Positions 61,777-62,625 of a stretch of 64,000 nt of DNA are shown here, piece after piece. Below the pieces are notes generated by a model. It saw nothing but the letters and a program-made list of their open reading frames with translations. It ran no database searches and was not told the DNA's origin. Both the position numbers and the translations under genes were made by a program. Positions within the stretch are counted from its first letter, which is position 1. Each line of letters opens with the position of its first letter. The DNA lies in assembly GCF_900187365.1 (NCBI RefSeq), contig NZ_FYDG01000003.1:186001-250000 (forward strand), given 5' to 3'. This stretch comes from Rhodoblastus acidophilus (GTDB lineage: Bacteria > Pseudomonadota > Alphaproteobacteria > Rhizobiales > Beijerinckiaceae).

Positions 61777-62625
61777 TTAAAGTTGCTTCGCTTCTTCGAG
61801 CGCAGCGGTCTGATCGGGCTGCGGCGCTTGAACCAATTCGATCCGGTAGCCATCGGGATCGGCGATGAAGGCGACGATGTTCTCGCCATGTCTTTGCGCG
61901 CGAGGGGGGCGGGGCATGGAGACGCCCGCCGCCGCCAGGCGGTCGCAAAGACGCATGATGTCGTTGACCTGGATGGCGATGTGGCCGAAGGCGTCGCCGG
62001 CGACATAGGCCTCCTCGCGCTGCCAGTTCTGCACCAGTTCGAGCGTCATGCCGCCAAAGCCGGCGGCATAGCCGAGATAGGCCTGCGAGAACTGGTTCTT
62101 CTTGTGCTCGCGGCGCTCCAGCACGCGCATGCCGAGCTGCTGCGTATAGAAGGCGATGGAGCGGTCGAGATCGGCGACGCGCAGCATGGCGTGCATCAGC
62201 GCGAATTCGCCGGCGTCGAGTGTCGCATCCTCGGCGGCGGCTTTCTTGGCGGCGTAAAGCTCGGCCAGGGCTTCATCCACGCTCTTGCCGGCGTAGAAAT
62301 TGGTGGCCTCGACGCCGATCTGCGCCAGCGCCTCCTGCGGCGCGGCGCCGACCTTGGCGACCAGCAGAACCTGGCAGTCGGCGATCATGCGATAGATGGT
62401 CTGGCGCGGGTCCTCATCTTCGTTGAGGGCGTGCTCCGCGATGGCGCGCGCCGCGACGAGCCGCGCGCCCTGCGCATCCACGTCATAGACAGAGAAGACT
62501 TCGGCATGGCCGAAATGCAGATCGACGCGCGCGCCTTCCTTGGTGGCGACGGCCACGCGCAACCGCAGGCCTGGCGCGGTCCCGGCTTTCGTTTCCGGTT
62601 GGTGTTCGAGCACGGCGTCCAGCAT
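61777..62625 (-). CDS. NifX-like domain fused to glyoxalase I (VOC) domain
   Basis: A 282-residue two-domain protein. Residues about 20-127 are a NifX/NafY/VnfX-type cofactor-binding domain ([29 protein letters not shown]). Residues about 140-268 resemble E. coli GloA ([24 protein letters not shown]...[14 protein letters not shown]). All four GloA metal ligands are kept: His145, Glu196, His215, Glu263. NifX-family proteins carry NifB-co or FeV-co precursors; why a glyoxalase is joined to one is unknown. It is first in the vnfH operon, under a sigma-54 promoter, with GAGGTAA before the ATG. Confidence 0.9.

Follow-up and report, generated by a model that had tools for sequence, protein, structure and literature searches.

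Why should a metal-binding domain of the glyoxalase I type be joined to a nitrogenase cofactor carrier, beside the genes for a vanadium nitrogenase? The question is raised by a gene in the window analysed here, a stretch of 64,000 nucleotides from Rhodoblastus acidophilus. To our knowledge, how vanadium rather than molybdenum enters the cofactor of V-nitrogenase, and what supplies the vanadium and the homocitrate, is not settled. The position of the fusion beside V-nitrogenase genes points to an unexplored step in the building of the vanadium cofactor. Our main reading, which comes from sequence comparison and to which we give a probability of about 0.6, is that the fusion is an accessory protein of V-nitrogenase (FeV) cofactor assembly in Alphaproteobacteria.

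A sequence-only reading of the window had reported two domains in one frame, and profile searches bear this out. The N-terminal half matches Nitro_FeMo-Co (PF02579) at 62.7 bits against a Pfam cut-off of 26.3, and the C-terminal half matches Glyoxalase (PF00903) at 80 bits against a cut-off of 20.6; the protein also scores 122.5 bits with the NCBIfam model for lactoylglutathione lyase (TIGR00068, cut-off 120). We refer to this architecture as NifX::VOC. Three further Rhodoblastus genomes keep the frame, with an identity of about 80%, and the fusion is kept in 24 loci, so it is not a chance frame, and conservation across those loci likewise rules out a broken fusion. Table 1 gives the coordinates.

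Table 1. Features of the vnf region in the window
Feature	Position	Strand	Basis
NifX::VOC fusion gene, single frame, ATG to TAA, 282 amino acids	61777..62625	-	Reading frame, Pfam, NCBIfam
NifX-type domain, residues 31-124, NifB C-terminal-domain lineage, His37 aligned with NifX His35	62254..62535	-	Pfam, tree, alignment
Glyoxalase I-derived VOC domain, residues 144-264, ligands His145, Glu196, His215, Glu263	61834..62196	-	Pfam, alignment
vnfH, coding for the nitrogenase iron protein; second in the operon, 20 bp past the fusion gene	60884..61756	-	
vnfD 5' part (TIGR01860, partial at window edge), divergent to the fusion; runs to L036:14470 beyond the window, then vnfG and vnfK	63055..64000	+	
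Sigma-54 -24/-12 element TGGCACG-GTCG-TTGC, upstream of the fusion gene, exact match to motif	62660..62674	-	
Sigma-54-like element TGGCACGCTTCCTGC, upstream of vnfD	62938..62952	+	
vnfA-type sigma-54-dependent activator (GAF, AAA+, Fis HTH)	57002..58762	+	
Orf116, without Pfam or NCBIfam match; adjoins vnfA in many alphaproteobacterial vnf clusters	58786..59136	+	

The fusion had also been read as the first gene before vnfH, and this holds: its stop codon (61777-61779) lies on the same strand, just ahead of the vnfH start. The usual order in alphaproteobacterial clusters is vnfX-vnfN-vnfE, vnfA-orf116, (vnfH)-NifX::VOC and vnfD-G-K-orf298-vnfY. Most alphaproteobacterial loci have an exact TGGCACG-N4-TTGC upstream of the module, and vnfD is preceded by a close variant, mostly TGGCACG-N4-CTGC or GTGC. 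Exact sites are rare, with only 30 in 494 kb of alphaproteobacterial vnf loci, and in a shuffled control just one of 5400 shuffled 400-bp pieces contained the exact motif on the given strand. The placement of the motif before the module, together with this rarity, supports putative control of the fusion gene by sigma-54 and VnfA.

Several other genes accompany these clusters. A GNAT-type gene (Acetyltransf_6; 59133-60278, minus strand) lies between orf116 and vnfH in the window. Following vnfK is a protein of 298 amino acids (L036:16490-17386) that matches no Pfam or NCBIfam model; vnf operons of Alpha-, Beta- and Gammaproteobacteria keep it between vnfK and a VnfY-like gene. Also adjoining vnf clusters are genes for a CobW/HypB/UreG-type GTPase, an ABC-type ATPase and a solute-binding protein (L036:18107-20000, just past the window; L063:226-3042; L065:3784-5626; L140:19255-21363), with a nitroreductase-like gene in some. 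This set is found in Alpha- and Gammaproteobacteria, in one myxococcal MAG and in Methanosarcina, and may possibly serve in vanadium uptake or handling. Genome G172 has a second GTPase-ATPase pair, adjoining an iron-type ABC importer and a TonB-receptor-like gene.

How closely does the fusion follow V-nitrogenase? In every genome set searched, it was seen only in genomes with V-nitrogenase. Within the genus it is present in four of 11 genomes, the same four that carry vnfG. Across the order, vnfG scored above cut-off in two of 397 genomes, and these two held the only matches to the fusion at E<=1e-40, one of them in split form; in the class sample, fusion and vnfG occur together in the same two of 385 genomes. 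The family to which genome G513 belongs shows a patchy distribution of both within two genera, the fusion being present in 10 of 55 genomes, exactly those with vnfG above cut-off, and absent from three genomes with only a sub-cut-off (anfG-like) match. The link to V-nitrogenase proposed by the sequence-only reading is thus upheld in all four sets, and the opposite pattern, a fusion concentrated in genomes that lack alternative nitrogenases, did not emerge when we looked for it. With a few genomes shared between these sets, and with the fusion gene physically linked to vnf, the four results cannot count as independent tests of function; joint transfer explains part of the co-distribution. The class sample also contained 13 further genomes, without vnf, that have VOC-only matches of the canonical GloA type at E about 1e-41; the seven of these that were placed in our tree all fall outside the vnf clade, and we rejected them as vnf-type VOC domains.

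A scan with VnfD returned 80 vnfD loci, from Alphaproteobacteria to Methanosarcina. Record titles, sequence and gene layout led us to class 29 of these as alphaproteobacterial; as L080 is cut at the relevant site, 28 can be assessed. The module, whole or partial, occupies the same site in 26 of the 28, and in 24 it is fused and divergent to vnfD. Of the other two, the Azospirillum TSO22-1 locus (L144) keeps only a VOC gene there, its NifX gene lying about 9 kb off in the same cluster, and L113 has NifX alone, without VOC. Neither half is found at the site in the alphaproteobacterial loci L108 and L111, and the VOC module is present in none of the remaining 51 loci of the scan. G172, which was found separately from the scan, carries the halves on two neighbouring genes, the stop of one overlapping the start of the next (ATGA). 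In Gammaproteobacteria, Cyanobacteria, Firmicutes and Archaea, V-nitrogenase works with no VOC part; given also L108, L111 and L113, the step that the fusion would serve is not universally needed.

Two copies are incomplete. In a Magnetospirillum MAG (L085/G878) a one-base frameshift falls inside the VOC half (L217:8400-8420) with the remainder intact, which is probably an assembly error, and the copy in L078/G851 is truncated by the end of the contig. Searches of plasmids gave no place covering 80% of the query, and the fusion was not found in the viral contigs searched. Upstream of vnfH in Azotobacter beijerinckii (L088:3071-3526) and A. chroococcum (L091:5252-5722) there is another VOC-family gene; at 28-31% identity these glyoxalase-like genes look like a different VOC family and were rejected as the same module, and the same vnfH region of A. 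vinelandii has no match to them.

With the association established, we turn to the VOC half. The sequence-only reading listed four intact metal ligands, and His145, Glu196, His215 and Glu263 do align with His5, Glu56, His74 and Glu122 of E. coli GloA (PDB 1f9z); all four are invariant in 24 of 24 vnf VOC copies. GloA-type proteins are dimers. An AlphaFold2 model built from 22 aligned fusions and folded as a monomer (mean pLDDT 83, pTM 0.64) finds GloA as its best VOC relative in Foldseek (39-43% identity, E to 1e-12), with a large rmsd that, in our reading of the model, would fit the swapped-dimer arrangement of GloA as against a monomeric prediction. The best surviving alternative to our reading, itself unlikely, builds on such dimerisation: the VOC half would serve as a dimerisation or docking module that brings the NifX domain onto VnfEN, VnfH or apo-VnfDGK, with a metal site that is structural or a relic. 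NafY and AnfO offer a precedent for such a division of labour: each has one domain for docking on the apo-enzyme and a second that handles the cofactor (PMC11938142). A relic should lose its ligands, however, and here all four are invariant along with the neighbouring pocket residues in 24 of 24 copies.

The pocket also bears on whether the VOC half is simply an enzyme. Arg149 and Asn200, which correspond to Arg37 and Asn103 of the glutathione (GSH) site of human GLO1, are kept in 24 of 24 copies, but the third residue of that site, Thr101, is Val198 in all 24 (against Thr in 50 of 50 canonical GloAs), and the full GSH site is accordingly not retained. Nor is the hydrophobic pocket of glyoxalase I, where Phe62, Leu69 and Phe71 are replaced by His174, Gln181 and Tyr183 in 24 of 24; human numbers were assigned by gapless offset from the fusion to E. 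coli GloA and from there to human GLO1, the second step being our own mapping. In human GLO1, Phe62, Leu69, Phe71 and Thr101 line the hydrophobic pocket or its mouth (PMC6268171), and the residues found at these four positions make the vnf pocket more polar. Set against 50 canonical GloAs, the invariant or near-invariant differences of the vnf copies are Arg172, His174, Lys175-Lys176, Asn177, Gln181, Tyr183, Val198, Pro238 and Gln244, among which His174, Asn177, Gln181, Tyr183 and Val198 are invariant pocket changes. The vnf VOC copies form one clade on a long stem beside alphaproteobacterial GloA, with support of 100/100, or 100/99 when closer GloAs are added. Median identity is 73% for the VOC half and 54% for the NifX half, compared with 90% for VnfD.

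The claim of a complete Ni/Zn-type glyoxalase thus stands as far as the metal ligands are concerned and goes too far at the pocket, where the changes are shared by all vnf copies. Could the VOC half nonetheless be a working GSH-dependent glyoxalase I, or a related hemithioacetal enzyme, that shields V-nitrogenase or its cofactor from reactive aldehydes during V-dependent growth? We consider this quite unlikely. The kept metal ligands and GSH-binding Arg149 and Asn200 speak for it, as does the score of the window's protein just above the lactoylglutathione lyase cut-off, but other members straddle that cut-off (113-125 bits around 120) and two canonical GloA controls score 165 and 178. The window's genome moreover encodes a separate GloA-type gene, the four pocket and mouth positions are altered, and an aldehyde shield would leave the tight coupling to V-nitrogenase, and not to the Mo- or Fe-only enzymes, unexplained. 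Because the pocket-lining positions are changed, and invariantly so in the vnf copies, detoxification of methylglyoxal is less likely than a new ligand, and the VOC half is probably not a plain methylglyoxal glyoxalase.

What kind of carrier is the NifX half? Its place in the NifX superfamily, as proposed from sequence alone, is secure by profile score, yet the lineage is that of another protein. The NifX equivalog model TIGR02663 gives only 47.1 bits, below its cut-off of 112, and the best NCBIfam match is TIGR01290 (NifB; 82 bits, positions 314-439). Among the 88 NifX-family domains of our tree, every copy, fused or split, falls in a single clade (100/99) inside the lineage of NifB C-terminal domains (100/99), apart from VnfX, VnfY and NafY-like proteins. 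By Foldseek, the model matches NifX as seen in the NifEN-NifX complex, and also the core of NafY, at an rmsd of 2.5 A and a TM of 0.77 by target. Alignment with NifX of PDB 9ian (9ian_E) puts His37 at position 35, and both His37 and Cys84 are kept without exception in 22 of 22 fusions. According to a published report, His35 of NifX binds NifB-co, and proteins of the family that lack it have been suggested to be placeholders or antagonists (PMC13128457).

It is very unlikely that the fusion acts as another VnfX or VnfY, simply carrying cofactor with little effect of the VOC half. Membership of the NifX superfamily and the conserved cluster-binding histidine fit such a role, as do standalone relatives of the NifX half, without VOC, in vnf-bearing Gamma- and Betaproteobacteria, several of which adjoin vnfA. 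However, VnfX (after vnfN) and VnfY (after vnfK) are separate genes in the same clusters and belong to other clades, so that the fusion differs from both in clade and in gene place; the tree and the separate VnfX gene rule out the NifX half as a VnfX orthologue. Moreover, it is the VOC half that is the better conserved, and Azospirillum TSO22-1 keeps VOC at the site while its NifX gene lies apart. That the fusion is a mere hitchhiker of the cluster, with no role in V-nitrogenase, is barely credible: physical linkage alone would yield the co-distribution, but site, promoter motif and catalytic residues are kept across several orders, in a protein fused to a nitrogenase-cofactor domain.

Related NifX-like domains also occur elsewhere. 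One, a standalone protein of the NifB C-terminal type that keeps the cluster-binding histidine, is encoded in A. vinelandii (L175:6229-6591), away from the vnf genes and near an apparent polyamine-type ABC transporter; Azomonas and other Gammaproteobacteria have related proteins. In the window's genome, a NifB-type gene lies on the window's own contig (L003, G000:C38:110665), a near-identical partial copy on another contig (L004, C60:214) and a third NifB-type gene on C53, and the NifX-like domains of these three share about 42%, 41% and 30% identity with that of the fusion.

Returning to a role in FeV cofactor assembly, the following scheme may be proposed. From what is known of its family, the NifX domain would carry NifB-co or a later Fe-V precursor en route to VnfEN or apo-VnfDGK. 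At its metal site the VOC domain, probably a dimer like GloA, would bind a small polar O,O-chelating ligand, which the fusion would place next to the cluster when VnfH acts. Our leading guess for the ligand, a tentative one, is homocitrate or a vanadium-homocitrate (or vanadium-thiol) species. In its fullest form, which is doubtful, the proposal makes the VOC half a glyoxalase neofunctionalised to bind vanadium, homocitrate or V-homocitrate and to pass it on to a NifB-co-type cluster in the NifX half; the two would act with VnfH on VnfEN as a dedicated module for insertion of vanadium (and homocitrate) in Alphaproteobacteria.

A literature search, outside which many subscription papers lie, turned up no paper that connects a glyoxalase with NifX or with vnf genes. 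The gene seems nonetheless to have been annotated already, its nature undescribed: RPA1377 of Rhodopseudomonas palustris is listed only as 'Glyoxalase', with the change F250Y in an evolved strain (PMC9973337). RPA1377 is probably a member of the fusion family, since it is long enough to carry F250Y and the protein of an R. palustris MAG (L072) has Phe at 249. A conserved protein confined to V-nitrogenase, which combines a cofactor carrier with an intact mononuclear metal site, offers a direct genetic and biochemical handle on the step at which vanadium enters. It suggests that a housekeeping detoxification fold has been recruited into metallocofactor assembly, and the natural split, VOC-only, NifX-only and absent versions provide ready comparisons.

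Set beside known systems, the fusion resembles each in part. With the NifX and VnfX chaperones of A. vinelandii it shares the Nitro_FeMo-Co fold, the cluster-binding histidine and, as a gene, a place in the vnf cluster, but it differs in the origin of its NifX half and in its C-terminal VOC domain, VnfX being a gene of its own. NifB has the NifX-like C-terminal domain closest to that of the fusion by both profile and tree; unlike NifB, the fusion lacks the radical-SAM part and has VOC joined instead. NafY, VnfY and AnfO likewise place a NifX-type domain in a nitrogenase-specific gene set, with a second domain in NafY and AnfO, but as its second domain the fusion has neither the SAM domain of NafY nor the C-terminal domain of AnfO, having instead a metal domain of glyoxalase I origin. 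Finally, the VOC half has the fold, the four metal ligands and the GSH-site Arg and Asn of GloA (E. coli 1f9z, P. aeruginosa GloA2 4mtq), and departs from it in a remodelled pocket and mouth, in being joined to NifX, and in occurring only with vnf.
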